NCBI GenBank assembly: GCA_025354645.1
Contig: JANXML010000116.1
Location: 1 to 60,549, forward strand
DNA length: 60,549 nt
Direction of reading: 5' to 3'
From: Arcicella sp.
Lineage (GTDB): Bacteria; Bacteroidota; Bacteroidia; Cytophagales; Spirosomataceae
Each line of letters starts with the position of its first letter. Within the stretch, counting starts at the first letter, position 1. The notes under the pieces were generated by a model. That model was not told the origin of the DNA, ran no database searches, and saw only the letters and a program-made list of their open reading frames with translations. The position numbers and the translations under genes were made by a program. Positions 6,637-59,038 of the stretch are shown piece after piece.

Positions 6637-7662
6637 TTAAATAATATTTTCTAAATCTTGCAATCTCTGTGATATTTCTTCGGGAGATGGTAATAATCCT
6701 TTGAATTGCTCAGGTAGTAATGATGTTGTATTGTAGGTTGAAACTCCAATTGGATAAACAGCGTTTTTAAAAGAATATTCAACAATAGTTCTATCTTTTT
6801 CTTTACAAATTATAATTCCAATGGCTTCATTTTCTCCTTCTTCTTTATATTTATCATTCAAAATAGATAAATAAAATTCCATTTTGCCTTTGTATTCAGG
6901 CTTAAATTCATCAATTTTCAATTCGATTGCAACCAAACATTTTAGTTTACGATGAAATAATAATAAATCTATAAAGTATTCATTACCAGCTACTTTTACA
7001 CAAAATTGATTACCAACAAACGTAAAAGCACTTCCCATTTCAATCAAGAATTTACGGATATTCTTAACTAAGGCTTCTTCTAATTCTCTTTCTGAATATT
7101 CATCGGCTAAATCTAAAAAATCAAAACTGTAATGGTCTTTAACCGCTAAATGTGCTTGATGAGCATAATTTTCGGGTAATAATTGGTCAAAATTCGTCTG
7201 ATTAGTCAAATACATTTCAAACGCTTTTCTTTCAATTTGATGAATTAAAACGTTCTTTGTCCAGCCAAATTTTTTGGTATGAAGCATATAAAATTTACGC
7301 TCTTCGGCGGTTTTACACTTCCGTATGATGATGACATTATGAGTCCAACCAATTTCCCCAACCATTGGTTGGGATATTGTATCTCCTTGATATTCAAGGT
7401 AAAACAACTTCATATACTCCAAATTGCTTCTGCCAAAACCGTTCTGATTGGGAAATTCTGTTTGTAAATCCTTTGAAAGATTTTCAATAATAGATTTCCC
7501 CCAGCCGAATTGCGTTTGGCGTTCTACAATCATTTTACCCAACTCCCAATAAAGTTGAATTAACTCCTTATTGACGGCTTTTAAAGCCTTATATTGAGCT
7601 TCCCGAATTTTCGTTTTTACTTCCCCGAAAAAAGATTGGTAATCTGAATTTTGAATATCCAT
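6637..7662 (-). CDS. DUF1016/YhcG-type PD-(D/E)XK nuclease domain protein
   Basis: A 341-aa protein. Residues about 1-170 match the DUF1016 N-terminal domain (aligned cues: LYWELGKMIVERQ, GWGKSIIENLSKDL, FGRSNLEYMKLFY, MLHTKKFGWTKN). The C-terminal half is the PDDEXK-like domain: GNEYFIDLLLFHRKLKCLVAIELK supplies the Asp and the E-x-K of a PD-(D/E)XK nuclease core, followed by GKMEFYLSILND. The catalytic residues look intact. It starts 1 nt after the adaptor stop and ends 10 nt before the pump start, so it must share their transcript. That is odd: the family is usually met near restriction or mobile genes, not in efflux operons. The role is unknown; DNA or RNA cleavage is inferred from the fold. 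It may be a recent insertion into the operon. Confidence 0.88.
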   Translation of the reverse strand: MDIQNSDYQSFFGEVKTKIREAQYKALKAVNKELIQLYWELGKMIVERQTQFGWGKSIIENLSKDLQTEFPNQNGFGRSNLEYMKLFYLEYQGDTISQPMVGEIGWTHNVIIIRKCKTAEERKFYMLHTKKFGWTKNVLIHQIERKAFEMYLTNQTNFDQLLPENYAHQAHLAVKDHYSFDFLDLADEYSERELEEALVKNIRKFLIEMGSAFTFVGNQFCVKVAGNEYFIDLLLFHRKLKCLVAIELKIDEFKPEYKGKMEFYLSILNDKYKEEGENEAIGIIICKEKDRTIVEYSFKNAVYPIGVSTYNTTSLLPEQFKGLLPSPEEISQRLQDLENII

Positions 7663-7663
7663 T

Positions 7664-8773
7664 TTAATAATTTATCAAACTTCCATCAACCAAATCCTGA
7701 TACCCTTGTGTAATCACCATTTCGCCAGCCGTTAAACCTTCTAAAATTTCAACATTTCCGTTGTAAGAAATTCCTGTCTTTATTTTTTTTGCCTTTGCCA
7801 TTTTCTTTCCACCTTCCGTAACAGCTACATAAACCAAATCTCCTCCTTCGGTTTTTTGAACCACATTCTGACTGACTATCAATGAGTTACCTTTCGATAA
7901 ATCATTGATATTAATAATCGCTACCTGATTTGGTTTTAACGTACCGCCCAAATTTGGAATATTTGCTTCAATACCAAAGGTTCTTGAAGCAGGGTCAATT
8001 AAGGCATTTACCAATGAAATCCTCGAGGTAAATTCTTTATTAATATCTGGAAATTTAACGGTGATAGCATCGCCTTTTTTTACAGAACCTACGTAAGTAT
8101 CTCCGATTTTTGCCACAACTTTCAAGTCGCCAACGTTCACAATTTGAGCCATCGGAACGCCTGGCATTCCCATCTCACCCGATTTTTGGATAAGTTTTTC
8201 AACCGTTCCTGAAATAGGTGCATAAACCTTGCTCATTCCCAATTGTGTGTCCATCGTATTGATTCTTTTTTCCAAAGATTCTTTATTGGCTTTTGCTTGA
8301 AGATATTGAATCTCAGTACCAATTTGTTGATCCCACAATGCTTTTTGCTTATTAAAAACCGTACTGGCTAACTCTAATTGCGTTTTTATTTCAACCAAGG
8401 ATTCTTTCATGACAGAATTATCAATCGTTGCCACTAATTGTCCTTTCTTAACGGCTTGTCCTTCAGTAATGAAAATTCCAGTAATTGCTCCACCCATTTG
8501 TGGCGTAACTTGAACAATATTTTTGGAAGTTACTAAGCCCTGTGCTTCCACAAAGTGCTTGAAATTTTGTGGTTCAACTGCACTAACTGTTACGTTAATC
8601 GGTGTTGCTTCCACCTTTTTGCCTCCACCTAATTCTTTTTCAAGGGTTTTTATTTTAGTTTCAATCTCTTTCTGTTGAGATTTCAAATCGGCTAATTCGG
8701 TTTTTTTATCGGGCTTATTGCAAGCGGATAAAATAAAAAATGAGGCTAAGAATATGTATGTATTTGCTTTCAT
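7664..8773 (-). CDS. RND efflux periplasmic adaptor (HlyD/MFP family) lipoprotein
   Basis: A 369-aa adaptor that bridges the inner-membrane pump and the outer-membrane channel. The signal peptide ends in a lipobox (ILSAC at about residues 14-18), so it should be a lipoprotein. A short coiled coil (LKSQQKEIETKIKTLEKEL) follows. Next come the first half of the lipoyl/barrel-sandwich domain (GQAVKKGQLVATID), a hairpin of helices (about residues 125-180), the second lipoyl half (VYAPISGTVEKLI) and beta-barrel domains (VKFPDINKEF..., PNQVAIININD). It lies 76 bp after the TolC-like gene and 1 nt before the DUF1016 gene. Family and role are clear; substrate is unknown. Confidence 0.94.
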   Translation of the reverse strand: MKANTYIFLASFFILSACNKPDKKTELADLKSQQKEIETKIKTLEKELGGGKKVEATPINVTVSAVEPQNFKHFVEAQGLVTSKNIVQVTPQMGGAITGIFITEGQAVKKGQLVATIDNSVMKESLVEIKTQLELASTVFNKQKALWDQQIGTEIQYLQAKANKESLEKRINTMDTQLGMSKVYAPISGTVEKLIQKSGEMGMPGVPMAQIVNVGDLKVVAKIGDTYVGSVKKGDAITVKFPDINKEFTSRISLVNALIDPASRTFGIEANIPNLGGTLKPNQVAIININDLSKGNSLIVSQNVVQKTEGGDLVYVAVTEGGKKMAKAKKIKTGISYNGNVEILEGLTAGEMVITQGYQDLVDGSLINY

Positions 8774-27840: not shown

Positions 27841-27903
27841 CGCCGTTGTCTGTGTCTTCACAGACAACTTACTCGGTCGTCTGTGAAGACACAGACAACG
27901 GCG
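27841..27903. repeat. Nested inverted repeat (two hairpins in mirror arrangement)
   Basis: The 28-bp arms (27841-27868 and 27876-27903) are complementary with one mismatch around a 7-bp spacer. Each arm is itself a hairpin: the left one has the stem GTTGTCTGTG / CACAGACAAC around TCTT. The structure resembles paired REP elements. Confidence 0.8.
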
Positions 27904-42006: not shown

Positions 42007-42063
42007 ATTCTTATTAATTTATTACTCAAAACTGAAATTCCTTCTGGTAAAATAGGAGAAAAT

Positions 42064-42173
42064 GGGGCAACATAAAGAACGATTCTGAATCACATTGATT
42101 CATGGTTACGGAAGGCTTCATTGTTTTGAAATCTTCCGTTTTTAATAATTTTACTTCAAAGTTGGCACTGCCG
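42064..42173 (-). repeat. 110-bp 3'-end direct repeat, copy 1
   Basis: Identical at 109 of 110 positions to 45150-45259 (C/T difference in a codon near the stop). It covers the last seven codons or so of the 878-aa protein, the stop codon and about 87 bp downstream. On the minus strand the 3' part holds two hairpins: ACGGAAG...CTTCCGT and GAATCA-ATG-TGATTC. Confidence 0.85.
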
Positions 42174-44784
42174 TTCCTACTGAACAACTCGGTGGAGCTG
42201 TTACGGTTAATTTGTAAGTTTTAGTTACACAATTTGCCGTTGGCGTTGTAGTATCACAAACTTTTATACAGTAATAATGAGTACCCGCAGTAGTTGGTGC
42301 TGTATATGTATATATTCCTGATGTTGAGTTAGTTATCGTTAAATTACTGCCTGATGGCAATGCTGTTGCACCTGCTATGGGCGTACATGAGCCTGAATTA
42401 TCTGCTGAGTAAACATAATTGCCATCACCCCCTGCTGGAGTTAATTCAGTGGCGACATTACCCGTTTTGGCTTGGCTTGGTGTGGCAGTTTGTGCAGGTG
42501 GATTCACGGCGGTCAGCGGCGTTGGTGCTGCTGTTACGGTAAGTGTATAAGTTTTAGTTACACAACTTGGCGTTGGAGTAGCCGTATCGCACACTTTAAT
42601 ACAATAATAGTAAGTACCAGCTGCGGCAGGAGTAGTGAAAGTATAAGCACCTGTACTGGCGTTAGTTACCGTCAAGTTACTGCTTGCTGGCAAAGCCGTT
42701 GCACCGCTTACAGGCGTACACGAACCCGAATTATCCACTGAATAAGTATAAGTTCCGTTACCACCCACAGGCACTAATTCAGTAGTAGCATCGCCTGTTT
42801 TTGGGCTATTGGTAACTCCCGATTTTGGAGCAGGTGTATTAGCCGTAACAGGAGGGAAACAAGTTTTGATAGTGTTATCAATTGCTTTGGCGTAAGTAGA
42901 AGTATAGTTGATTGTTCCATTGTCCACTACTGTTTCAAGGCTATTCGCCAACCCATTAGTACCAACAGCCGTAGTAAATTTAAAATTAGTTGTAAGGCTG
43001 GTAGTTGCATTTGCTTCAAAAGCATCAGAGCAACCATCGTTATCAGAATCAAGGTCTAAATAATTTGGAATACCATCATTATCAGTATCAGCACAAACAC
43101 AACCTGCCAATAAGCCCGATGCAGTAGAACTAAAAGCAGTTGCAGGAATATTTACCCAACCTGCCCCATTAACATTCCATTGAAGCAATGCTCCGTAAAA
43201 ATCTGCACCATCTGAGATTGCATTACCAAACGCAATCCACTGACCACTTGAATTAGTATTGGTAAAAGTATATTCCGTACTATTGACAATAGTACCAGAG
43301 AAATTTACTTTTTGATATGATACTTCTTGCAAATTTGCGGTATTCGTTGTTGCATTTCCAGAAGCATCTAATGCCAAATGTAGTGTTGTAAAGTCTTCTC
43401 TCACTGCTCCAACCGAAGCAGGCGTACCACTTGCCAAAGTTCTAACCTGTAAAGTTGAATAACACGGTAATGCCAAAAAGCCTTCAATTTGGGCAAAACT
43501 ACCATTGTTGGGATTTGAACCTCCATTTGGAACATCCACCCAAGGTATTTGTCCAAAAACAACTGCTGTTGTTCCTGTAATTGTTGCAGCATTAGCTGTA
43601 AAGTTGGGAAAATCACCATACTTGATTGCTGATGTTGGATTATTTCGATGAAGCGTCGTGCTTGAATAGAAAGCATCTCCAGAAGAAAGTTCAGCTAAAT
43701 TCCAAACTTTATAATTTATTTGTCCATCTCCAGAACTTGATGTTTTTACACATTCTACTGAATCTAAAACTCCATCATTATCATCATCTATGTCAGTGCT
43801 ATCAGGTATGCCATCGCCATCTGTATCAATATCAATCAACACGCTTTTAGTACAAGCACCTGTGCCTTGTGTAGAGGTAATGGTAAGTGTTCTATTCCCT
43901 ACTGAACCCGTGCCATCATAAGTAATTGGTACAGTTACAGAGGTTTGTCCAGTTGTTAATGTTGTTGTTAAAGTTCCTGTGAAACCAGTGCCAGCAACAG
44001 TTAAAGTTACAGGACCTGCCACTGCACCTGTGATAGGTATAACTAATGTACCAGCTTGTCCTGCTGTGCTATTTGCTAAGAAAATACCTGTTGAAGTAGC
44101 ACTACCACAATTAAAGGTAAAGCCACCTGGGGGGCAACTACCTTGATTACTTATATTAGCAATACCAAAATCATCACCTCCTTGACCATTGCCTGGTGCT
44201 GAAAAGGTGGCAACCCCACCCGAAGTAGTGTAAGGTGCTGTAAATCTGAATGTTAATACTGCACTATTGGGGCTACCGCTTGGCCAAGGAATCGTTAAAG
44301 AAATACCTGTATCAGTAAATGCGTTACCCGTTGTACCTCCTGGGAAAGAAGTATTATCAAAACCAGCCAGACTTGCCGAACCAGAAGTTGTAGCCGTTAC
44401 TTTTCCAGTAGCAGATCCAGTAGCAGAAGGGTTATCGAAAGTAACATATACTGTACCATTTAATAACACTTCCAACTTAGCCTGCGTAACAGCGGTACTG
44501 TTTTGCCCTGCTTGTTGGCAAAATAAATCAAAATTTATAGTTACTTGATTGGCAATAGGTCCACCATTTAAACCTATAAGTGTTTGACTTAAAGTTTGAC
44601 CATTAGCACCATCAGTTGAGTTCACTGCTCTTGGGGTAGTTTGAAATGCCCAACCACCAGAACTCGTCCAACCTGTGCCACTACCCCCTGCAAAAGTGCC
44701 GTTTGAAACAATGTTACAAGTTTGTGCAAAGGTTTGTTGCCCAAAGAGCAACATTGCCAACAGCAACATATTTTTTGCTTTCAT
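42151..44784 (-). CDS. Secreted modular protein with NCGS module and calcium-binding repeats
   Basis: An exported protein of about 877 aa from [21 protein letters not shown] at 44784, a clean signal peptide. The frame is open further up to ATGs at 44907 ([11 protein letters not shown]..., a start conserved at two other sites) and 44934, so an N-terminal extension of 41 residues is possible. Layout: a jelly-roll-like domain (about 22-215, [12 protein letters not shown]...); NCGS module (about 223-315); thrombospondin-3-like loops ([19 protein letters not shown]); an unnamed domain; a second calcium segment ([26 protein letters not shown], about 558); and two Ig-like repeats with [11 protein letters not shown] and YYCIKVCDT (about 640-860). 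It ends [11 protein letters not shown]. Surface or extracellular role inferred. Confidence 0.88.
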
Positions 44785-44789
44785 TCGTG

Positions 44790-44828
44790 TTTTCACCAAC
44801 AAATTTGTTAATAACTTATTGGTGAAAA
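44790..44828 (-). promoter_or_regulatory. Hairpin directly in front of the MKAKN start codon
   Basis: TTTTCACCAA and its exact complement TTGGTGAAAA enclose 19 nt and end 6 nt before the ATG at 44784. In an mRNA this would cover the start region. The 19-nt word AATTTGTTGGTGAAAACAC in it recurs at 48282-48300. Confidence 0.5.
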
Positions 44829-44922
44829 TATCAACAAAGACGAAACCATAAAGACAAAATGCGTCAATATTCGATAAGGGAAAAAGTAACGGCTTTTTCA
44901 TATTCATAATTTTTGATAAAGT

Positions 44923-44974
44923 CCTCTTCCCCAAGACGGACTAAGTTCGACATATATTCCTTTTGGGGAAAAGG
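44923..44974 (-). promoter_or_regulatory. Conserved leader stem-loop, copy A
   Basis: On the minus strand CCTTTTCCCCAA, a 28-nt loop, then TTGGGGAAGAGG: a 12-bp stem with one G-U pair. It ends 15 nt before the ATG at 44907 ([11 protein letters not shown]). The loop is nearly the same as in copy B at 55251-55302. Confidence 0.7.
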
Positions 44975-45149
44975 GTATTTTTTTAGTTAAAAGAACGTTT
45001 TGGGTCATCAAAACCCTTGGTAGAAATTAGCTTGTTTACAGTCTATGCCATTACATCAAGCTAAAATCTTTTTATTGTTTACCTTCATTTTGTCAATAGA
45101 GTAAAGGCTTCTCTTCAAATAATGGCTCTTCTCACAAACTGACAAGAAA

Positions 45150-45259
45150 GGGGCAACATAAAGAACGATTCTGAATCACATTGATTCATGGTTACGGAAG
45201 GCTTCATTGTTTTGAAATCTTCCGTTTTTAATAATTTTACTTTAAAGTTGGCACTGCCG
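45150..45259 (-). repeat. 110-bp 3'-end direct repeat, copy 2
   Basis: Matches 42064-42173 at 109 of 110 positions. It covers the last codons of the 287-aa protein gene, its stop at 45237 and about 87 bp downstream with the same two hairpins. The remaining gap up to the leader hairpin at 44974 has no gene that I can support. Confidence 0.85.
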
Positions 45260-46100
45260 AACCCACAACAGCACAAGAAACTGTAATCTTGTAAGTAGCA
45301 TAAGCACAAACAGCCGTCGGCATGGTATTATCACAAACCTTCACACAGAAATAGTAAGTCCCTGGTGCTGTGGGGGCTGTGTAAGTGTAACTGCCTGTTG
45401 CTGTGATACTTACGCCAGGCAATGCCGTTGCACCCATTGGAACAACACAAGCGGGATCTGTTGAACCATCTGAATAATTATACGGTCCCGTTCCACCAGT
45501 TGGCATTAATTCCGCTGCGGCATCACCCGTTTTGTTTTGATTGGGTGTTGCGGTTTGTGCAGGTGGCGTATTGAGTGTTATATCAGTACAAGACTTACTC
45601 ACCACCACAATAGGGCTTGCATTGGTAAAACAAAGCCCCGTAGTGTTATAATATGCCGCAAAATAAGTCCCGACCGCTGCCATACTGACGGCAGTTCCAC
45701 TGATTATGTTGGCACTCGTTGCGGGCGAACCCGAATGATAGCTCACGACCGTTCCCGCAGGTTTTGCGGTTGAATCGACCAAGGTTTTTAAATCAACCGT
45801 GGTGGTTGGGCAAGTGTTAGTGGCAATCCTCAAAACCGAAGGACTACTATAACACGTACTGAAATTATAGACTCCATAATAAAGCCCAGGGGCGGCAGCC
45901 GCCACTTGTGAAGGAGTCATCAAATTACCAACCCCAATCGGTAAGGCATTGTGCCACTCAAAAGTACCACCAGAGGGTGCGGCGACTGTTGGCTGATGAG
46001 TTACAAGGTCGGTGGGTGTTTGGGCTAATGTTGTGGTGGAAATTCCTATCAACATCAGTAATAAAATCACCCAATTTCGATTTATCTTATTTGTTTTCAC
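45237..46100 (-). CDS. Small secreted Ig-like repeat protein
   Basis: A 287-aa exported protein. The signal peptide ends at TTTLAQ (about residue 26). Three short beta modules follow: GGTFEWHNALPIG...CYSSPS; TNTCPTTTVDLKTLVDSTAKPAGTVVSYHSGSPAT...LCF (about 93-170), close to units in the 4562-aa protein; and ELMPTGGTGPYNYSDGS...YYFCVKVCDNTMP (about 190-275), close to units in the 878-, 2309- and 643-aa proteins. It ends CAVVGSAVPTLK. It lies only 29 bp after the beta-helix protein gene, so the two form an operon. Function is unknown beyond a surface or extracellular role. Confidence 0.86.
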   Translation of the reverse strand: MKTNKINRNWVILLLMLIGISTTTLAQTPTDLVTHQPTVAAPSGGTFEWHNALPIGVGNLMTPSQVAAAAPGLYYGVYNFSTCYSSPSVLRIATNTCPTTTVDLKTLVDSTAKPAGTVVSYHSGSPATSANIISGTAVSMAAVGTYFAAYYNTTGLCFTNASPIVVVSKSCTDITLNTPPAQTATPNQNKTGDAAAELMPTGGTGPYNYSDGSTDPACVVPMGATALPGVSITATGSYTYTAPTAPGTYYFCVKVCDNTMPTAVCAYATYKITVSCAVVGSAVPTLK

Positions 46101-46129
46101 GATAAAATTATTTTAAAAATGAGTGATAA

Positions 46130-48007
46130 TTATTTCAATTTAGGTCCTTCCTGAACGGCACTGCAATTATCCAAAGTCCATACAGTTGTGATGACTGATT
46201 TAGCGGTTAAAGCAAGATTTGCGGTACAAGCCGTTAAAGTACCCACTTGAAAATTGAGTGTACCCAAAGCCGTTCCGTCATATTTTACTGGAATATGAAA
46301 TTGCTGAATACCCGTTGTGGTGGTAGTAATTGAATTTACACCATTTGCCAACGACATTCCCGAACCGCTCACGGTGATTGGTGTGAATGTTCCAGCCGTT
46401 GTTACGTTGATGGTTACAATTAAATCTCCTTGTGAAGCTGTGCCTGCCACTGGTGCTGGACTGATTTGTGTTTTGGCACAATCAATTGTTCCTACGCCCG
46501 TGTTTGTGGGGGCTGGTGTTGAAGTAAAGTTTAAAACATTTACTGGACAAGCAACAGTCGTTAAAGTGGCAGCACCACCATCAGCCGTTGTATTGTTGAA
46601 AGTATTGCCCGTTCCGAAAGTATAACCACCCGTTGGCGTACCAGCCTGATTTAGATATGCAGTGGCACTTGCCAACTGAACCTTTGAATTTAAGATAGAT
46701 TGAAAACGGTTTGTACCATCATAACTAATAAAATCTGCTCCTTTGATGGTTGTACTAACCCCAATTCTATTCTCCATGAAAATAGTATTATTCATAGAAG
46801 TACAAGTTGCCGCACCCGAAGCGAGGATTGCTCCACCAAAAGTATTGCCAGGTACTGAGTTTCTGTAAAATACTGAATTATCAACCGTGAAATTTACATT
46901 CGAACCTTCAAGGTGTAATGCTCCGCCACCATCAGCAGAACCTGTTGATTTTTGCTGATCCATGTTGTAGTTATAGGCAAACTTGCAGTTATCAAAATGC
47001 GTTGCCAATGCAGACTGAGCGGTGGTTTGATAAATAGCTCCACCTAAATCTGAATGATTACCATAAAAAGTTGAACCCGTACAGTTTATTGATGAAGTTG
47101 TGGCAAAAATAGCCCCACCCCAATAGTCCATTTTGGTAGAGTTATTCGTGAAACTGCACGTAGTGATTTCGATGGGAGCAGTAGTTGTGTAAATCGCTCC
47201 GCCGTATAAAGAAGAATGATTATTACAGAAAGAACTGTTTTTTACTTTCATGTTATAACCAGTAGGTCCCGTTGTGTTGAAAATTGCTCCGCCATTTTCA
47301 GCATTACAATTACTGAACGCACAACCATCAATAGTAAACTTTGAGCTTGGAGCCGTAGTGATATGGATTGCCCCACCATTATAAGCATTACAACCGTCAA
47401 AAATACAATTTTTGAAATCGACCGTAGGACCATTCACGGTTGTAAAGAAAAACGCTCCGTTGTCTGCCCAGTTATTGATACACTTCAAGTCTTCAAATAA
47501 ATAAGTACAAGCGGCGGCAGTGCTTGATGCGGCATAAAATATTGAACCACTCGTTGCCACACCTTCTGTGAGCGTAAACCCTTTAATAATCAGTTTATTG
47601 GAATACCCAGACCCAGAAACTCCCGCCAAAAACATTCCAAAACCATTACCATTTATTGTGGTAACATTGGTTGTCGGATTATAACCCGATACATTCGTAC
47701 CAGTTGCCGAACTTGGAAAACCTCCTTGAATATTTACATTCACGTTTGGTATCGTCATTTGGGCAGATAATGGATATAAACCTGCGGCTACATAAACATT
47801 ATTTGTGGCAGGAGAAACAGCGTTAGCGGCTGTTATGGCTGCTCCGATACTTCCCATGGCATCGTCCCAGGTTGCTCCTGTGCCTGTGCCACCCGCTTTC
47901 ACATATTTATCAGTTGCAAATACTGAAAGACCCGTTGAAATCACCAAGCCCAGCACGAATGCTGTGCGAAGTAAAAATAACTTGTTGAAATTGAATAAAT
48001 TTTTCAT
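46130..48007 (-). CDS. Secreted beta-helix protein with PMP-like GGAI repeats
   Basis: A 625-aa exported protein. Signal peptide ...STGLSVFA (about residue 31). Residues about 32-430 look like a right-handed parallel beta-helix: DKYVKAGGTGTGATWDDA at the start, then repeated N(G)GAI/F and F.NC/N turns (GGAIHITT, GGAIFNTTG, GGAIYTTTAP, GGAIFATTS, GGAIYQTTA), as in polymorphic-membrane-protein repeats. A linker follows, then a C-terminal domain (about 500-625) starting TIDCAKTQISPAPVAGTAS that is shared with the 2309-aa protein. It ends CSAVQEGPKLK. First gene of a two-gene operon with the 287-aa protein, with a leader stem-loop 18 nt before its ATG. Adhesion or carbohydrate contact is inferred. 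Confidence 0.88.
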   Translation of the reverse strand: MKNLFNFNKLFLLRTAFVLGLVISTGLSVFATDKYVKAGGTGTGATWDDAMGSIGAAITAANAVSPATNNVYVAAGLYPLSAQMTIPNVNVNIQGGFPSSATGTNVSGYNPTTNVTTINGNGFGMFLAGVSGSGYSNKLIIKGFTLTEGVATSGSIFYAASSTAAACTYLFEDLKCINNWADNGAFFFTTVNGPTVDFKNCIFDGCNAYNGGAIHITTAPSSKFTIDGCAFSNCNAENGGAIFNTTGPTGYNMKVKNSSFCNNHSSLYGGAIYTTTAPIEITTCSFTNNSTKMDYWGGAIFATTSSINCTGSTFYGNHSDLGGAIYQTTAQSALATHFDNCKFAYNYNMDQQKSTGSADGGGALHLEGSNVNFTVDNSVFYRNSVPGNTFGGAILASGAATCTSMNNTIFMENRIGVSTTIKGADFISYDGTNRFQSILNSKVQLASATAYLNQAGTPTGGYTFGTGNTFNNTTADGGAATLTTVACPVNVLNFTSTPAPTNTGVGTIDCAKTQISPAPVAGTASQGDLIVTINVTTAGTFTPITVSGSGMSLANGVNSITTTTTGIQQFHIPVKYDGTALGTLNFQVGTLTACTANLALTAKSVITTVWTLDNCSAVQEGPKLK

Positions 48008-48025
48008 GAACTTATTGTTGTTAAG

Positions 48026-48083
48026 CCTCTACCCAAAGGAGGCAATTTGAGAAATTATTTAATTATTTGCCTTTGGGTAAAGG
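48026..48083 (-). promoter_or_regulatory. Conserved leader stem-loop, copy D
   Basis: On the minus strand CCTTTACCCAAAGG, a 30-nt loop, then CCTTTGGGTAGAGG: a 14-bp stem with one G-U pair in the same place as in copies A and B. It ends 18 nt before the ATG at 48007. The CCCC/GGGG pairs of A and B are changed to ACCC/GGGT on both sides, so pairing is kept. Confidence 0.65.
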
Positions 48084-48189
48084 ACTGTTGTAATGGTCTT
48101 TCGACTATTTTTCGCTTTTATCCGATTTGTTGGTTTAGGCAACCCCGTTCAACACTGACAAAAGCAGAATAGTAAATGTCTGATAATCA

Positions 48190-48220
48190 GACCTTATAGG
48201 TTTCAAAAACCTATAAGGTC
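48190..48220. repeat. Palindromic repeat GACCTTATAGG
   Basis: A perfect 11-bp inverted repeat (GACCTTATAGG / CCTATAAGGTC) around a 9-nt A/T-rich loop. A word of this kind is a frequent intergenic palindrome in Bacteroidota. It lies between the 2309-aa and 625-aa protein genes. Confidence 0.65.
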
Positions 48221-48274
48221 TATCCAAATTAATTGTGCCTTAGCATTTATAACTTACGAAGATATTTTTTCGCC

Positions 48275-48298
48275 TTTGTTGGTGTTTTCACCAACAAA
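48275..48298 (-). terminator. Perfect hairpin after the 2309-aa protein gene
   Basis: TTTGTTGGTG, loop of four, CACCAACAAA: a 10-bp perfect stem starting 8 nt after the stop at 48306. There is no T-run after it on the minus strand, so a role as terminator or 3' stabiliser is only likely by position. Confidence 0.5.
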
Positions 48299-48305
48299 TT
48301 CCCGC

Positions 48306-51300
48306 TTACTTCGTCAAAACCCCTGGAATAATCGCCGTACAGCCATCTAATGAATAAACATTCTTAGAAACTACCTTCGGTGCTTTGGTCATATCTGCCG
48401 TACAAGAACCTGCACTGCCAACTGTAAATTGTAAGCTGTTGGTGAGTGCCGTTCCATCATAATGTACTGGAATAATGAAAGTCTGTAATCCTGTTGCGGT
48501 GGCTGTTACGCTGTATGGTGAAAGACTCAACGTAAACCCTGAACCTGTCACTGTTACAGGCGAGAAGGCACCAGTTGTTGTTACATTCACGGTAACGTAC
48601 AAAGCATGATTTGAAGCCGTACCCGCTACTGGTGCAGGTATCATTTGGGTTTTTGAACAATCTATTGTACCCGTTGCTACTGTCCCCGAAACTGTTATCG
48701 TATAAACTGCCACATCACAAAGCGGTGGTAATCCACTATCGCATACCTTTATGCAGTAATAATAAATGCCTGGCGTAGTAGGTGCAGTGTAAGTATAATT
48801 ACCATTTGAGTTCACTACTAAATTTGAACTTCCAGGCAGAGGCGATGCCCCAGCGGGTGCTACACATTTAGGGTCAGTAGCACCATTGCTGTATGTATAT
48901 GGTCCTGTGCCTCCTTGTGGAGCTAAGTCTATGGCTGCATCACCGCTTTTATTACTACCCGCAGCAACTGATTGGCTTTGAGCATTGTTTATCACGAATG
49001 ATTGTATTTTGGTGATGACTTGGTTAGACTTAAATTCTTTGTAAGTATAATTCTGAGCATCTGCACCAATACCCGTTCTTACGGTAAACGTATTTTTGAG
49101 CGTATCACCAACTACTGGATTTGAAACTGTGATGGCTTTGATTTTAATAATCAAAGTTTGTCCACCATTGATTGTCAAATCTCTAATATCAAATGTACCA
49201 GTGCCAGCATAAGCATTCGTCAAAGGTGTTCCCGAAGGTGTTGGCAAATACGTAAGCGTGCTTGTTACATATTTTGCATTGCCCTGTAATATATCTGTTA
49301 GTTGCGTAGTAGTGGCGGCTATACCATTGTTTTTGATTGTATAAGTATATTCTACTGTTCCTCCTTGTGGCATGGCTGCTTTATCTACTGCTTTTGTCAG
49401 AGTCAAATTAGCCGTTGCTGGTGGAGCCGTAATCGTGATTGGTGTTGGATTGGTTGCTCCTGCGATATTTGGCTCATCTGACTGATACGTGTTTCCATTC
49501 ACCGTAAATGATGCTTGATTGTTCAACGTACCCGTTTGTGAAGCAACTGCCTCTACATAGATATATGAAGTTCCAGTTGGAAGCGAAATATTGCCTAATG
49601 TCAATGTTTTTGTACTTCCGTAACTGTTTTGTGAACCAATCGCTAAGGTTGTAGCCAAGGTGCTATCTTTCCATGTAATACCCGTTGGTAATACGTCATT
49701 CAAATTGACAGTCTGAGGATTACAATTAAAGTTCTGGAATTTGAACTTGTACGTAAATGTTTCTCCCTGACGGCTCGAATTTGGCGAAACCGTTTTGAAT
49801 AAATACACATTATCAGGTGTAACTACCTCTGGAACAACCTCTTTACAAGTAATATCTATTGCACCAATGGCAATATCGTTGAACTTATCAATGCCTGGAT
49901 ACAGTGCATCTTCTTTGGTATGTTCCACAAAAATCTCATCAATTGGCGACTCGAAGTTTACGTACATATCACCTAACACCGTCCAGTCCCAAGGATAAAT
50001 TGACCCCGTGCCTGTGTTACCACTGATGGTTACGTTGGTATATAATTTATTGGTAGAGAGAATTGGATTAACCACTGCTCCGCCCAATTTACCATAGACT
50101 TTCACAACGTCTTTACCCCACCACCAACCATCGATGTCTTTGATTTTGAATGAAACCTTAGACGCTGGTTGTGCTGTACTTACTGCACCCGTATTATGCA
50201 AAGCTATTTTGGTTGTAACTACCGTTGTTGGCGTATTGTCATAACGTGGAATATACAAGTAATTATAATAACTTACAGGATACCAATCCAGTGTTGGTTG
50301 ATACAATATTGGAGCGGCATTATTGATTGAAGTTGCACCCGAGCGAACCGTTACCGTAGCTGACTGACCTCCACCCAAATTATAGGTTTTGTCACTCGTA
50401 CCCCACGACCACCAATCAAATGAAGGCGTGAACGACAACCAATTTAAGGTTTTGTCGCCACCTGTACACAAGTTGGCAGGTGGGTTTGTGCTACCCACGT
50501 AGCGTACATATTGCGTTCCCGTGAAATTATATCCTGATTCAAATTCTCCTGACGTTCCATTATAATTTGCTGGAACATTAGCCACAATATTTGTGAAAGC
50601 TGCATCAGATGCAATTTGCATAAATACGGTGCTGGTAGGTCCGAAACCAAAGGCTGTCAAATTGGTTGAAACTCTGGTCATTTCTACTGAACCTGTCTCT
50701 ACGAATTGCCATATACGTTGCGTTGCTTTATCTGTGCCTTCTGGTTTGCAAGGAGCGGCTGGCGAAAGTGTAGTTAAAGTAACTGCACCATTATTATCAC
50801 CCGCCAACAAGAACGAAGCGTTGGTATCGAATGCTCCCGTATTGGTGGAGTTGGTAGTATTAATTTGATTATCAATACCAATCGTCATCAAAGAACCTGT
50901 ATTAACCGATTTTGATTGCTTTTGATTTAAGGCTTGACAATCATCACGACCAATACCGAATACGTTATTGTGAAAAGCTGAGTTGGCTGTTTTATCCCAT
51001 ATTTTGGTTGTGCCATTACCCGCTATGTAGTCACCTTCTGTTATTAAGGCACTATTATCTGCAACATCTAAGGTAATACCATATTTAATGGCTAAATAGG
51101 TTTGTACTCGTTGGCGTTCTTGAATCGTTAATTCTCTTGAAAAATGGATAATTTCCTGAGTTTTATTATTATTCATACCAAAAGAATTACCACCACCTAC
51201 GGTAAGGAAGTTGTAAGGCACAAACGTCCCCCCACCTGATTTTCCCGTTGCTGACACTTCATTACCGTTATTACCTACCGAAGTTGCACCCGTTGTGCTA

Positions 51301-54300
51301 TTGAGTGATGCACTCATAATCGTAGGCGTATTCAAAGTAAATAACTTAGTACCATTCAAACGATTATAAACATTACCTGGTGCTACACCCGCAAAAGGGG
51401 CTGAAATATAGTGTAATGAAACTTTATCTTCGGCTATATCAGAAGTACCCAAACCCCAATTGTGTAAACCAGCATCACTATTATCAGTATCCGTAAAACG
51501 AATAAAGTTATTATAACTTCCTTTTGCTGCGTATTTATTAACCACACCAAAAGTAGTCGTATTGATAGCATAATTTGAACCCGTTACAGTTGTGTTTAGT
51601 CTTTGATTACCAGTAAAATTAATGTAAGGATTATAGTTACTCAAAGCATCTCCATCTGAGAAAGAAGGTTGTAAAGTAGTTGTCGCTTGTGTAAGAGCAG
51701 GATTATTTCCACTGGGATCAGTATCTGCCCAACCCGTTACTACTGTTCCTGTCTTTGTAACATTTTTTGCAGGGTCAAACCAAAAATCAAGTCCAGATAC
51801 ACAACCAGGAGAAAAGATTTCACTACCAAACGTAAAATATTGACCATCGGTAAAATCATAGTTTACTGAACCGCTTACGAGAGGTATTTCCGTTACACCC
51901 GTAGCAAAAGTTGGGTCAGTACTCACTAATAAGTGCTTTCCACCTGCTGAGTTATTGATTGAAACACTACCCACCGTACCTGTTTCTTGGACTTTCCAAA
52001 CACGATTCATGCGGAAATATCCACCCGCTGGCGTGTATGAACTGATAGCGTAAGCCACTCCGTAAGAAGCCGCAAGACCATTGTCTCCAATGATTTCAAA
52101 ACTCTTATCGGCTGTGAAATTATTGGTGTTAGCAGCATTTGTGGCTACAATGACATTATTATTACCAATCGTTACAATAGAACCTGCATTAGTTGATTTT
52201 GATTGTTTTTGGTTTAAGCCCTGGCAATCATCACGACCGATACCGAAGACACCGTTGTGGTAAGCTGAGTTGGCAGTCTTATCCCAAATTTTCACACTTG
52301 AACCAGATAAATAATCATGATCAAGTGTTAAACCATATTTAATACCGAAATAAGTATCTACACGATTTCTTTCATTATCGGTAAGTACGGAATTATAATA
52401 AGCTACTTCTGGCACACGCCCTTGCATACCGTAGGTGCTACCACCGATTTGCATATTGGCACTCAAATCGCCAGTAATATTGTCGCTGTAAATTGTGGTG
52501 TTACCGTTCCAACTTACTTCCTTATTGTTAGTACCCGTGATAGCATTGATACGCCCACCGTACAAACCTATCGTTCCGAAGGTAATATTGGCAGTAGTAT
52601 TCCATCTATTAACAGTACCTCCTTTTGATAACCAGTGGTGAACAGGATTGTGGTTTGCACCATTAAGTGCTGTTCCAAGGGCAAAATCGTGAAGTACCGC
52701 ACCACCTGCACCGCTACCGAAACGGAAAGCATGGTTGTAGGTAGGATCAATGTTAGCATCTTTTTGAGCTACCAAGAAAGTAGTATGCAATCTGCCCAAA
52801 GCCGTAGGATCAACTACGCCCGTGATATGAGCATTAGCTGGGAACAATACGTAAGGATTAAAATTACTTTGAGCATCTCCTGGTGATAAACTGATTGTAG
52901 CTGTTGTTCCCGAAGCGGCTTTTGTCAATGACAAATCATTGTTTCTATCCGCCCAAGCCGTTACGCTTGTTGTGCCTGTTACTGCCTGACTTGCATCATA
53001 CCAGTATTGTAAGCCAATTGATACACAACCTGGGGATTTCAGATTACATCTATCTTTTATATTATTATTTGCCCATGAAGCATAGCCAGATATATAATTA
53101 AGAATACCATTATCAGCCACCGTTTCAACTGCATCCGCCAAGCCATTTGTTCCAACTGCACCCGTAAATTTGAAATTAGCGGTTTTATCAGAGGTTGCAC
53201 CCGCTTCGTAAGCATCTGAACAACCGTCACCATCAGAATCTAAATCAAAACGATTAACGATTCCGTCATTATCTGTATCTGCATTTGGACAATCGGTTGA
53301 ACCCACCGTGACACCCGTCCAATTTTCAAGGGTTGAAGAAGTGTAAGAAATACTTGAATATGTACCAATTAACTGAATAGTACCATTAGACTCTGCAAAT
53401 GGACCAACAAGTGTATTACCAGATTTAGTAACACCACCTTTCTGACCAAGTAATATAAAGTCATTGGCAAAAGTAAAGCTACTATTATTCATGCTCCAAA
53501 AGACTAAAATTGGGTCTTTTACTGGTTGGCTAAATGTGTAAGTATGAGTCAAACCTACACCGTGAAATGCCTGCAAGCCTTCTACGCCTGAAACTGGCAT
53601 CACACCATTATAAGCATCTCCTAAATTAAAATAACCTGGTGTTTGAATTGTTTGTACCTGAGGAGAAGTATAAGTAACCGTTACATTTCCTGCGGTTAAT
53701 GGTAAAGTACCTGTCGCTGAACTTCCTGCTGTAACGGCAGTCCAATCCGTCCATTTTGCGAAAGGTGGACACTGATTTTCAACACTGTCTAAGACACCAT
53801 CGTTATCATCATCTAAATCAAGACTATCGGCAATACCGTCATTATCGTTATCGGGTATATTTCCGCCAAATGTATAATAATCACCATCGGCAAAATCTAT
53901 TGTTGCCGTGTAATAATCTACGCCACCAATAGTTTCAACATTCATTACAACCTGCGTATCAGTACCATCAAACGTAGCATTTCCATTACTGCGGAGTAAC
54001 GTTACGCTCGTTAAATCACTTGTGAAAGATTTAAGAATAGCTACCTTCACACTGCCAACCGTACCCGTTTCTTGGATTTTCCAAACACGAGTAATACGAT
54101 GTGTCATACTACCGAAGACAAAAGGAGTCGCAAAATTTGTTGCTCCTGCATCAGAACCCGACATTTCAAATGATTTATCTACGGTGAAACCCGCTGAATT
54201 AGTAGCATTCGTAGTGGCAAAACCAGTCGTAGAAATGATTGGCTGAAAACCATTATTACCTGACATTGATTGTTTTTGGCTTAAACCTTGACAATCATCA

Positions 54301-55235
54301 CGACCGATACCGAATGTATTATTAGTATGCGTTGAATTGGCTACTCTGTCCCAAATAACGGTATTATCACCCGCCAAATAATTATGACCTAATGATGTGC
54401 CATATTTAACGCCGAGATAAGTGTTTACTCGTTGGCGTTCTTGGGTTGTTAATTTTCTATTGTATAAAACAATTTCAGAAATATCCCCATTGAAGATTGC
54501 TCCTGTGATTGCTCCAATATGATTACCTCCCAAGTTGGTAGAAAAATTTACGGTATTGGATGTTGTCGAATATTCTGTTGTTCCATTGAATGCAGCCTGC
54601 CAATCGTTCGTGGCAGAATACATATTGAATAGATTAAAGTTTGTGAGATCTATGGCAGAACCACTTGTTGTACCACCACCTTCTACAACAACTTTCGTTA
54701 TTGGATTCCATGCTTTTCGTACACTCGTTCCAAAATCTTGGTATAAAAAACCATTGCTTAATGGATAATAGGCATCCGAAGCACCGCCAAAATCAAATGG
54801 ACCTCCAAGGCTTGTGTTGTTATTCTTGGCACGAACCATTGAAAATACTTCTCCAGCCGTAAAAGTTGAAGTAAAGTTATTGGTACTACCCAAACCTACA
54901 TCGGTTCTGAAATAATCATCTCCGTCAAAATTTACGGTAGGATTAAAATTAACGACGTTAGACACTAATCGAGGGTCAGAATTAACGTAGTTTAACGTTC
55001 TACTTAAACCACTTTTATCCGTCCAGTTGGTTAAGTTACCTGGTGCTGAAGGCACAGTACCATCATCGGCTTTGAGCCAATATTGTAAACCAGCAGGCAC
55101 ACAACCAGGTGTTTGGGCAAAACTTTGACTTATAACTCCCAACATCAAGATAGGAATAATGACCAACTGTTGAAAAATACGTTCAACAAATTGAGTTCTA
55201 AACAATGGAAAAAGTAGCGGCTTTTTCATATTCAT
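48306..55235 (-). CDS. Giant secreted protein (2309 aa) with three LamG-like/DUF8202-like blocks
   Basis: An exported protein with a long signal peptide ([11 protein letters not shown]...GVISQSFAQ, about 41 aa). Three related blocks start GLQYWLKADD (about 45), GLQYWYDAS (about 733) and GLDFWFDPAK (about 1143). Each is a concanavalin/LamG-like domain followed by L..(Q/N)ER.RV.TY.(G/A)(V/I)KYG.(S/T)L and FGIGRDDCQ(G/A)L.QKQS, a pattern I associate with DUF8202 of Bacteroidota surface proteins. Between blocks 1 and 2 lie thrombospondin-3-like calcium loops (about 455-485 and 655-690). After block 3 come a Trp-rich domain, two DUF11-like domains (about 1808-1910 and 1935-2075), one Ig-like unit and the TIDCSKTQ domain shared with the 625-aa protein. 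It ends CTAIIPGVLTK. Likely a carbohydrate- or surface-binding adhesin. Confidence 0.92.
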   Translation of the reverse strand: MNMKKPLLFPLFRTQFVERIFQQLVIIPILMLGVISQSFAQTPGCVPAGLQYWLKADDGTVPSAPGNLTNWTDKSGLSRTLNYVNSDPRLVSNVVNFNPTVNFDGDDYFRTDVGLGSTNNFTSTFTAGEVFSMVRAKNNNTSLGGPFDFGGASDAYYPLSNGFLYQDFGTSVRKAWNPITKVVVEGGGTTSGSAIDLTNFNLFNMYSATNDWQAAFNGTTEYSTTSNTVNFSTNLGGNHIGAITGAIFNGDISEIVLYNRKLTTQERQRVNTYLGVKYGTSLGHNYLAGDNTVIWDRVANSTHTNNTFGIGRDDCQGLSQKQSMSGNNGFQPIISTTGFATTNATNSAGFTVDKSFEMSGSDAGATNFATPFVFGSMTHRITRVWKIQETGTVGSVKVAILKSFTSDLTSVTLLRSNGNATFDGTDTQVVMNVETIGGVDYYTATIDFADGDYYTFGGNIPDNDNDGIADSLDLDDDNDGVLDSVENQCPPFAKWTDWTAVTAGSSATGTLPLTAGNVTVTYTSPQVQTIQTPGYFNLGDAYNGVMPVSGVEGLQAFHGVGLTHTYTFSQPVKDPILVFWSMNNSSFTFANDFILLGQKGGVTKSGNTLVGPFAESNGTIQLIGTYSSISYTSSTLENWTGVTVGSTDCPNADTDNDGIVNRFDLDSDGDGCSDAYEAGATSDKTANFKFTGAVGTNGLADAVETVADNGILNYISGYASWANNNIKDRCNLKSPGCVSIGLQYWYDASQAVTGTTSVTAWADRNNDLSLTKAASGTTATISLSPGDAQSNFNPYVLFPANAHITGVVDPTALGRLHTTFLVAQKDANIDPTYNHAFRFGSGAGGAVLHDFALGTALNGANHNPVHHWLSKGGTVNRWNTTANITFGTIGLYGGRINAITGTNNKEVSWNGNTTIYSDNITGDLSANMQIGGSTYGMQGRVPEVAYYNSVLTDNERNRVDTYFGIKYGLTLDHDYLSGSSVKIWDKTANSAYHNGVFGIGRDDCQGLNQKQSKSTNAGSIVTIGNNNVIVATNAANTNNFTADKSFEIIGDNGLAASYGVAYAISSYTPAGGYFRMNRVWKVQETGTVGSVSINNSAGGKHLLVSTDPTFATGVTEIPLVSGSVNYDFTDGQYFTFGSEIFSPGCVSGLDFWFDPAKNVTKTGTVVTGWADTDPSGNNPALTQATTTLQPSFSDGDALSNYNPYINFTGNQRLNTTVTGSNYAINTTTFGVVNKYAAKGSYNNFIRFTDTDNSDAGLHNWGLGTSDIAEDKVSLHYISAPFAGVAPGNVYNRLNGTKLFTLNTPTIMSASLNSTTGATSVGNNGNEVSATGKSGGGTFVPYNFLTVGGGNSFGMNNNKTQEIIHFSRELTIQERQRVQTYLAIKYGITLDVADNSALITEGDYIAGNGTTKIWDKTANSAFHNNVFGIGRDDCQALNQKQSKSVNTGSLMTIGIDNQINTTNSTNTGAFDTNASFLLAGDNNGAVTLTTLSPAAPCKPEGTDKATQRIWQFVETGSVEMTRVSTNLTAFGFGPTSTVFMQIASDAAFTNIVANVPANYNGTSGEFESGYNFTGTQYVRYVGSTNPPANLCTGGDKTLNWLSFTPSFDWWSWGTSDKTYNLGGGQSATVTVRSGATSINNAAPILYQPTLDWYPVSYYNYLYIPRYDNTPTTVVTTKIALHNTGAVSTAQPASKVSFKIKDIDGWWWGKDVVKVYGKLGGAVVNPILSTNKLYTNVTISGNTGTGSIYPWDWTVLGDMYVNFESPIDEIFVEHTKEDALYPGIDKFNDIAIGAIDITCKEVVPEVVTPDNVYLFKTVSPNSSRQGETFTYKFKFQNFNCNPQTVNLNDVLPTGITWKDSTLATTLAIGSQNSYGSTKTLTLGNISLPTGTSYIYVEAVASQTGTLNNQASFTVNGNTYQSDEPNIAGATNPTPITITAPPATANLTLTKAVDKAAMPQGGTVEYTYTIKNNGIAATTTQLTDILQGNAKYVTSTLTYLPTPSGTPLTNAYAGTGTFDIRDLTINGGQTLIIKIKAITVSNPVVGDTLKNTFTVRTGIGADAQNYTYKEFKSNQVITKIQSFVINNAQSQSVAAGSNKSGDAAIDLAPQGGTGPYTYSNGATDPKCVAPAGASPLPGSSNLVVNSNGNYTYTAPTTPGIYYYCIKVCDSGLPPLCDVAVYTITVSGTVATGTIDCSKTQMIPAPVAGTASNHALYVTVNVTTTGAFSPVTVTGSGFTLSLSPYSVTATATGLQTFIIPVHYDGTALTNSLQFTVGSAGSCTADMTKAPKVVSKNVYSLDGCTAIIPGVLTK

Positions 55236-55250
55236 AATATTTGATTATGT

Positions 55251-55302
55251 CCTCTTCCCCAAGATGGACTACGTTCAACATATATCCCTTTTGGGGAAAA
55301 GG
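55251..55302 (-). promoter_or_regulatory. Conserved leader stem-loop, copy B
   Basis: On the minus strand CCTTTTCCCCAA, a 28-nt loop, then TTGGGGAAGAGG, ending 15 nt before the ATG at 55235. Stem and spacing are the same as in copy A (44923-44974), and the loops differ at only about five positions. Confidence 0.75.
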
Positions 55303-55392
55303 CGTTTTGAATTTACTTTTTTACTGAAAAATATTTTTGGTATAAAACACAAAACATACGATTTGAGGGAGTTAGATAGTTAGTCAAATCCC

Positions 55393-55440
55393 TCAAATGA
55401 TACTCTGTGATCGTAAAGGAAAAAGTAGCGGCTTTTTCAT
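55393..55440 (-). other. 15-codon mini-frame MKKPLLFPL... (leader peptide or gene relic)
   Basis: ATG at 55440 opens a 15-codon frame ([15 protein letters not shown]) closed by TGA at 55393-55395. Its first nine residues equal the start of the 2309-aa protein and the extended start of the 878-aa protein, and it too is preceded by a stem-loop at the same distance. It may be a duplicated gene start whose body was lost, or a translated leader peptide. Confidence 0.45.
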
Positions 55441-55454
55441 AAATATTTATTAAG

Positions 55455-55510
55455 CTCTCTTCCCCAAGAAAAGCAATGTTGTGATGACACTCCTTTGGGG
55501 GAAAGAAAGG
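55455..55510 (-). promoter_or_regulatory. Conserved leader stem-loop, copy C (weaker)
   Basis: On the minus strand a 5' arm with TTTCCCCCAAAG pairs with TTGGGGAAGAGAG after about 27 nt, with small mismatches. It ends 14 nt before the mini-frame ATG at 55440. It lies upstream of copy B in the same gap. The rest of the gap to 55706 shows no gene. Confidence 0.55.
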
Positions 55511-55706
55511 AATTTATGGAATAAGTTGGTAAAGAAAGCATGAGATTTCGACTCCAACTGAAAGAACGTTTTTGGATAATATCCATTCGAGTTACCCAAT
55601 AAAATTGAGTAACATATTTTTTACAATAAACTGATAATCAAATAGTTATGTATTAAAATCAGGAACTAATAAAGACGTATTGAAATTATCTCCTAATCCC
55701 TAATCC

Positions 55707-58468: not shown

Positions 58469-59038
58469 TCAATGGTTAATAAATTTTACAGTCCAAAATC
58501 CATTTTTATATACTATTTTAGAAATTGAACCGTAATCTATATCCATTCTGAAAGCATTTTTCAAATCCAAATCTAAGGCTCTACAAAGAAGCGTTCTGAT
58601 GGTTGCCGAATGATTTACCAACACAACTTGTTTGAAATCTTGGGTAATAATCTCATCCAAAAACTGGTTTGCACGGTTTGATAATTCCAAGAAACTCTCC
58701 CCGTTTGGGGTGTTGATGTTCACAAAATCTGCCATCCACGGGTCTGATTCTTCTCGCTTGATTTCTGCCCAAGATTGCATTTCCCAATCGCCAAAATTCA
58801 TTTCCCAAAGACGTTCTTCGGTTTGAAAATTATCGGTAATATGTTGGGCTAATTGAACGCACCGACTGGCAGGACTGCTCCAAATTTTTGCCTCATCAAC
58901 GTTACAATGTTTGAGTAATCTTTGCGTAGTATTTTCGATTTCTTCAACGGCAGTATGATTCAATGCTACGTCAGATTTTCCGTAGCAAATGCCTTTCTGT
59001 ACACCCACAGAGGTATGTCTGATTAAAAATATTTCCAT
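58469..59038 (-). CDS. cobC: Histidine phosphatase, probable alpha-ribazole phosphatase
   Basis: A 189-aa cytoplasmic phosphatase of the phosphoglycerate-mutase superfamily. MEIFLIRHTSVGVQKGICYGKSDVALN contains the RH catalytic motif (His at residue 8). WSSPASRCVQLAQ and LWEMNFGDWE are the next marks (Glu in the active site), and VLVNHSATIRTLL holds the second catalytic His. The sequence resembles CobC/alpha-ribazole phosphatase, which removes a phosphate in cobalamin nucleotide-loop assembly. The cobS gene 126 bp upstream and cobT beyond it support this role; by sequence alone the superfamily would be too broad. Confidence 0.85.
   Translation of the reverse strand: MEIFLIRHTSVGVQKGICYGKSDVALNHTAVEEIENTTQRLLKHCNVDEAKIWSSPASRCVQLAQHITDNFQTEERLWEMNFGDWEMQSWAEIKREESDPWMADFVNINTPNGESFLELSNRANQFLDEIITQDFKQVVLVNHSATIRTLLCRALDLDLKNAFRMDIDYGSISKIVYKNGFWTVKFINH

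Follow-up and report, generated by a model that had tools for sequence, protein, structure and literature searches.

The stretch analysed here, 60,549 nucleotides of contig JANXML010000116.1 of an Arcicella sp. (hereafter the window), carries on its minus strand a cluster of genes for secreted-looking proteins, with stem-loops lying shortly ahead of start codons. All features of this cluster are given on the minus strand. The gene at 42151..44907 encodes a secreted-looking repeat protein of 916-918 aa, the one at 46130..48007 a protein of 625 aa with Chlam_PMP/POMP repeats, and the one at 48306..55235 a protein of 2309 aa with DUF11-type repeats; a mini-frame of 15 codons, read directly, lies at 55393..55440. 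The three big open reading frames (ORFs) have signal-like N-termini by eye and match repeat proteins with varying strength. A preceding inspection of the letters (the sequence-only reading) had claimed four inverted repeats ahead of these frames, and all four were present: s44 (44923..44974, with a stem of 12 bp and a loop of 28 nt), s48 (48026..48083), s55a (55251..55302) and s55b (55455..55510), the last standing ahead of the mini-frame. That each stem lies just upstream of an ATG was borne out as well, the nearest ATG being found at 15 nt from s44, s55a and s55b and at 18 nt from s48. In s44 and s55a this is an extra in-frame ATG, 6 nt earlier (MNMKKP) than the one used; from stem end to the ATG used the distances are 21 (s44), 21 (s55a), 15 (s55b) and 18 nt (s48). 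The same MKKPLLFPL start after three of the four stems was likewise found as claimed. The segment ATGAAAAAGCCG(C/T)TACTTTTTCC follows s44, s55a and s55b, where it opens the 15-codon frame in the last case, and with up to three mismatches it was matched three times in the window versus a mean of 0.00 in shuffled sequences. An MKNLFNF start follows s48.

Further copies were found in two relatives. The covariance model R1 was built from three window copies (s44, s55a and s55b) without the ATG, and its search over 59 relatives gave matches at E<=1 in 14 genomes (23 rows), from which reading of the loci left G005 and G035 with two copies each. Fifteen loci among the R1 matches were read, one of them from the search of the own genome, and the remaining matches were judged by score. 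Both carriers are Cytophagales, G005 from the same genus (record JAAFJP010000019.1) and G035 from another genus (JAAFJL010000021.1). All four of their copies, found with R1, which holds no ATG, are in sense orientation ahead of MKKP(L/S)L starts. Counted over the three genomes, all 8 stem copies stand in sense orientation 15-25 nt ahead of an ATG, and the element is conserved at the level of nucleotides over two genera.

The copies were sorted into two types. Type A comprises s44, s55a, s55b, G005-A and G035-A, which share a core of 13 nt, TCTTGGGGAAGAG, invariant in five of five copies, while the loop varies. Type B comprises G005-B and G035-B, to which s48 was added by its 3' part, TCAAATTGC.TCCTTTGGG...GAGGCTTAA. 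A model of the three type B copies (R3) recovered its own members by construction at E 2.6e-14, 3.4e-14 and 1.1e-8 (s48). Farther upstream, a box CCAAAACGTTCTTT is found at 44990..45003 for s44, upstream of the type A leaders of G005 and G035, and with one mismatch at 55561..55574 for s55b.

The coding start was conserved nearly to the letter. Eight K-P-x-L starts (s48, which lacks one, left out) read ATG-(AAA/GGA)-AAG-CCG-(CTA/TTA/TCA)-CTT, with AAG, CCG and CTT in 8/8 and CTA in 6/8. Across 20 window ORFs AAG accounts for 21% of Lys, CCG for 7% of Pro, and CTA and CTT for 3% and 14% of Leu, and six ORFs gave similar values. Between the s55a gene and its counterpart in G005, with 48% protein identity over 1101 aa, the first 25 bases are identical and coding positions 31-300 are 51% alike. 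These segments, ATGAAAAAG-CCGTTA-CTTTTTCC for s44 (44879..44901), ATGAAAAAG-CCGCTA-CTTTTTCC for s55a (55207..55229) and the corresponding one of the s55b mini-frame (55418..55440), are predicted to form a hairpin at the start codon. Two full-length MKKPLL starts were the most structured of the 20 window ORF starts (-4.6 versus -2.6 for the next), and from 25 to 176 of 2000 synonymous recodings, depending on the gene, folded as well as the hairpin. At a further locus of G005, L124, one A-U pair of this hairpin has by eye become G-C on both sides. The MKKPLLFPL start, with its rare codons CCG and CTA, is preserved at the DNA level and not just as peptide.

Sense-RNA folds of the four window stems with flanks ranged from -22.8 to -33.7 kcal/mol (z -2.85 to -4.96), with the start segment included in the folded stretch for three of the four; among 200 shuffles of each, none folded as well for s44, s48 and s55a, and one for s55b. 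Each half of the stem was able to form a hairpin (eight copies folded; complete 3' hairpins of G035-A, G035-B and G005-B folded separately), and the long form was favoured over the two halves by predicted energy in 8/8 stretches, those of G035-A, G035-B and G005-B being partial. The local 3' hairpin, GTCC-g-TCTT-GGGG-AAGA-GGAC at 44921..44941 in s44, is the same at 55249-55269 in s55a and 55454-55474 in s55b. Pairing was counted over eight copies with hand-set arms (6 distinct rows, 12 pairs, slid versions as control): 90.3% of 72 cells of the long stem were paired, three of the twelve pairs had changed in both arms, a count that 31/500 shuffles reached, and the covariation score of 0.183 was reached by 22/500 shuffles. 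Within type A the long stem was counted on a MAFFT alignment together with the start hairpin. The local 3' hairpin with its GGGG loop had 97.5% of 40 cells paired, two of eight pairs changed on both sides and a covariation score reached by 10/500 shuffles, and within type A it covaries better than the long stem. In a fixed 12-bp register the 96 sense-strand cells comprised 77 Watson-Crick pairs, 12 G-U, 4 A-C and 3 other mismatches, and the sense fold was steadier than the antisense one in 7/8 copies. The G-U excess and the sense-fold stability lean to an RNA action in the sense strand, although the copies are related and the events few.

The joint change of both arms in s48 had been taken by the sequence-only reading as selection for pairing. 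Pairing is kept, but since s48 belongs to the other subtype its changed arms are a difference between paralogues. Covariation in relatives, which had been set as a test, was found in so far as some pairs change on both sides; it was modest overall and weak for the long stem in type A. The statement that no named element resembles this one proved half right. No match to the window was obtained in Rfam release 15 at gathering score, and window positions 55180-55600 and positions 7600-8300 of locus L051 gave matches far under that score only, so a known RNA family was rejected; the stem does, on the other hand, resemble a dispersed palindrome of the REPIN kind, as described below. A masking switch in which the 3' arm GGGGAAGAG pairs with CTTTTTCC of the coding region was also considered; it was possible by eye in s44, s55a, s55b and G005-A, but failed in G035-A, G005-B and G035-B and is thus not general.

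Likeness between leaders and likeness between the genes behind them come apart at the start. G005-A and G035-A are 75% alike upstream and 50%, which is background, over coding positions 31-300, and G005-B and G035-B are 81% alike at -400 to -151, 87% at -150 to -1 and 47% past the start. The G005-B and G035-A proteins are 89.7% identical over 756 aa but stand behind leaders of different type, with only 60% likeness in the 150 nt before the start (range for A-versus-B pairs 48-60%). The join of this reassortment, of which one event was seen, falls inside ATGAAAAAGCCG. Judged by these comparisons, gene bodies are not tied to leaders, and the simplest account of the event is gain or loss of one gene and one leader between direct repeats. 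At the other end of the genes, the 120 nt at 42061..42180 (3' end of the s44 gene and downstream DNA) are 96% identical to 45147..45266, at the end of the 45237-46100 gene, which indicates a recent exchange; gene ends have thus recombined too.

A dispersed palindrome of the family bears on the origin of the stem. With up to one mismatch CCCTTTNGGGGTTNGGGG was matched 76 times in G118, 42 in G062, 31 in G013, 16 in G110, 10 in G032 and once in G003, while reversed controls gave 4 matches in G062 and none in the other five genomes; several of the palindromes stand as close inverted pairs. Among 30 of the 176 matches that were read, 6 had an ORF start within 25 nt on the 3' side of the unit, 15 faced, at no more than 30 nt, the end of an ORF on the other strand, and 9 lay farther off, inside ORFs or without neighbours. 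With positions at both gene starts and gene ends, this is an intergenic repeat and not a start-specific element. Of 28 loci taken from a stricter palindrome pattern, which matched in 15/101 genomes, 7 lie within 20 nt of an ATG and one within 20 nt of a GTG that opens an ORF of 60 aa or more. Scored with a repeat consensus, which was set after the B units were known, the 3' units of G005-B, G035-B and s48 were equalled by 0, 0 and 1 of 5000 mononucleotide shuffles, and the weak type A units by 1 to 261. Over 35,378 35-mers (window, L051 and L052, both strands, every 5 bases) a score of at least 13 occurred only in the relatives' two B leaders; s48 scored 10, under an in-gene place at 58680 that scored 12. 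Because type B of the relatives strongly resembles the dispersed palindromes, the leader stem was probably recruited from such a repeat. The RAYT family PF01797 was considered as support for this origin and dropped, being found in 12/12 genomes, carriers and non-carriers, and thus not discriminating; it had no match on the window contig (C291), on C11 of G005 or on C124 of G035. The best weaker R3 match (E 0.038) lies ahead of a transaldolase-like ORF in G007. Palindrome units stand ahead of the same transaldolase-like gene in two genera (L130 in G007, L096 in G118), a hint that some dispersed copies may be kept at gene starts. In the titles listed, with most papers unsearched, no description was found of the palindrome, of REPIN/RAYT in Bacteroidetes, of REP in Cytophagales or of this leader.

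We favour, with a probability of about one half, the reading that these stems and starts make up a co-opted composite 5' leader module that would act in cis on translation or mRNA stability in a cluster of large secreted-looking proteins with exchangeable bodies. The module would consist, in this order, of an AAAACGT-type box (not in every copy), the CCCC...GGGG stem-loop, an AT-rich spacer (15-25 nt, up to the start used) and the start-codon hairpin written in the rare codons AAG CCG CTA CTT. The most likely source of its stem-loop is a REPIN-like palindrome, which would have been kept for cis action in the mRNA. The strong stem, whose end lies at the upstream border of the initiation region, may protect the 5' end from decay, or access to the weakly paired start codon may change as the RNA switches from the long stem to the local hairpin with its GGGG loop and back; this switch is a hypothesis for which the paired changes are the sole ground. 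Recombination in the common start segment would exchange the bodies behind the module, or add or remove them. In Flavobacterium johnsoniae, a model of the Bacteroidota, mRNA structure close to the start tunes initiation, which proceeds without Shine-Dalgarno (SD) sequences (PMC6847099). A stem 15-25 nt from the ATG borders on that region, and we therefore think that initiation or decay is what it most probably affects, the weak start hairpin being a second element. Translational control of the leader genes is plausible.

Several results weigh against such a module. The eight copies (6 distinct arm rows) represent few independent events. Within type A one pair of the long stem was changed on both sides, with 104/500 shuffles as good, and the six pairs of the start hairpin did not vary at all. 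A register slid by +2 scored 0.180 for covariation versus 0.183, with 58% of cells paired. For the local 3' hairpin 69/500 shuffles attained the pair count and 500/500 the further pair types, and the 5' local hairpin alone had no covariation support, slid versions scoring higher. G035-A was the exception in strand preference, its antisense fold being the better. Stem and start segment occur together at 7/9 places, with s48 as a stem without start segment and L124 (MGKPLLYS) as a start segment without stem, so the two are separable. Over 150 nt upstream s48 was 54-55% alike to other B leaders and 48-54% to A leaders, no closer to B than to A, so that its placement in type B comes from about 40 nt. 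No TAnnTTTG promoter pattern, as known from Bacteroidota, was present within 260 nt upstream of the 8 ATGs. Against the sequence-only reading, a degenerate stem pattern found in the own genome no site beyond the four window stems in 5,360,187 bases (reversed-pattern control 0), and the covariance-model search proposed by the sequence-only reading gave no convincing further copy in 5.36 Mb, in contrast to the four copies from relatives: R1 returned its own three copies and then four weak or antisense matches (E 0.2 to 7), without listing s48, which in a full-model window scan reached 20.1 bits (E 0.033) and ranked under two antisense echoes.

The spread of the element is narrow, with three genomes known. 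Model R2, of five type A copies and the start hairpin and including the ATG, matched five of 222 family genomes at E<=0.1, namely the three carriers, G003 and G097; the latter two matches are generic palindromes, which leaves the true element in 3/222 family genomes, and six of eight genus genomes were without it by R2 (the G003 match included as a generic palindrome). The genus count tells against the module, the family count against the sequence-only reading. Over 390 order genomes at E<=0.01, two genomes stood among the matches listed, the own genome and G341, the G005 and G035 rows standing outside the listed part. The three G341 matches are generic palindromes, each directly ahead of the ATG of an unrelated ORF, a position that R2 favours because it contains the ATG; strict palindrome elements, whose count is unbiased as to position, numbered 4 in 601,254 bases of G341, a number too small to speak for or against a start bias. 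Two Flavobacterium matches to the start-segment DNA (L083, L084) lay inside coding region without the leader and were taken as chance.

The stems may instead be passive relics: an ancestral surface gene would have had a REPIN-like palindrome in its upstream DNA, duplication of gene starts along with the genes would have copied it, and it would have no function in the leaders. We regard this as possible but the less likely account. It would explain the close match of the type B 3' units to the repeat consensus, the abundance of the repeat in family genomes at gene starts and ends alike, and the fact that several of the next-best model matches were such palindromes (G003 and G032 with R1; G003, G097 and G341 with R2). 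However, arms, GGGG and rare-codon start are kept over two genera where bodies differ, dispersed copies were absent from the own genome by pattern and by R1, and G-U pairs are in excess in the sense strand; moreover, the consensus was post hoc, s48 falls below the in-gene place at 58680 and type A is weak. Another view takes the start segment, with its inverted arms of about 9 bp around a 6-bp centre, as a DNA recombination joint that swaps bodies as in phase-variable systems. A DNA site would account for the conservation of rare codons, and the join inside ATGAAAAAGCCG, the orphan leader and start of s55b, and the exchange at gene 3' ends fit with it. Yet Pfam scans showed no recombinase family, either in 23 ORFs of the window (the giant one of 4562 aa left out) or in 10 of 15 further ORFs that flank the leaders in the relatives. 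The window copies all run in the same direction, none being inverted, and a single event of ordinary homologous recombination between direct repeats suffices for the reassortment. We regard the joint as unlikely.

A combination of the leader module with such a joint, a fixed expression head, would have bodies swapped at a DNA joint in the first codons (inverted arms around CCGCTA), with letters kept for recombination rather than peptide and a bistable CCCC/GGGG leader RNA controlling the joined body; we consider it improbable. As an intrinsic terminator or attenuator the stem is very improbable and was rejected, since no U run comes after any of the 4 window stems in sense orientation. Two hairpins would speak for it, one 3' of the mini-frame and one upstream of the B leaders of G005 and G035, which has T-rich DNA behind it and shows a paired A-T/T-A difference. 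The latter hairpin, at 7770-7830 of L051 and in the matching stretch of L052, is conserved, the next listed ORF is divergent, and it is a possible attenuator. The mini-frame has its stop in the 5' arm of the hairpin TTTGAGGGA/TCCCTCAAA (window 55362-55399), which may resemble leader-peptide attenuation or be a leftover gene end after loss of the body.

The proposed leader module shares traits with several known systems. REP/REPIN elements are palindromic repeats mobilised by RAYT (Y1) transposases. The leaders resemble them in having two inverted units, each hairpin-forming, with pairing over the whole length, and in the closeness of the relatives' type B to the dispersed family palindrome; they differ in that the four own-genome copies lie in one locus, none dispersed by pattern or R1, and that all copies are in sense orientation ahead of a start codon with sense G-U pairs. 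The ompA leader is an example of a stabilising or translational stem-loop in the 5' untranslated region of a surface-protein gene. The strong stem-loop ahead of surface-protein genes is alike, whereas the present one, known from sequence, is common to genes with unrelated N-termini and is combined with a fixed coding start. In the Vpma locus of Mycoplasma agalactiae, recombination sites were proposed at -1 to -72 before start codons (PMC2268961); there, too, neighbouring surface genes share a near-identical segment before the start, bodies differ and joins fall in the segment. Unlike at Vpma, no recombinase was found beside the locus among the ORFs scanned, the copies are direct and diverged, and any switching would be hypothetical. 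Further cases are shufflons of nutrient receptors and, in Bacteroides, an S-layer gene with an invertible promoter (PMC12548429).

The same contig contains a PorP/SprF gene, a CHU_C-domain gene, a giant Ig/cadherin-repeat gene and a longer relative of the latter, which together suggest a setting of type IX secretion. Short similar C-terminal tags were noticed in the window genes with 3' ends at 42151, 45237, 46130, 48306 and 55707, and in those at 4842 of L051 and 2631 of L052; in 5/7 of these clustered proteins the form is C, 2-3 residues, G, P three residues later, and K or N as last residue. The tags, which we take to be unlike the usual type IX C-terminal domain, are possibly sorting or repeat-boundary tags. 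In another part of the window, a 28-bp inverted repeat with one G-U and a 7-nt loop lies at 27841-27903 between two giant adhesin-like genes.

The overall interpretation of the sequence-only reading, a fold controlling surface-protein genes, is partly supported: the relatives' copies, the paired changes and the start kept in its nucleotides speak for it, while the lack of further copies in the own genome, the narrow spread and the weak covariation of the long stem do not. If the composite leader module is real, a dispersed palindrome would have become a leader by co-option in a phylum where SD pairing is hardly used, and a start kept at the nucleotide level would let genes for secreted proteins swap bodies under one control head. 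The reach is small, with three genomes; within it, eight copies, two subtypes and one reassortment would make a clean test case for structure-based control of translation in Bacteroidota.

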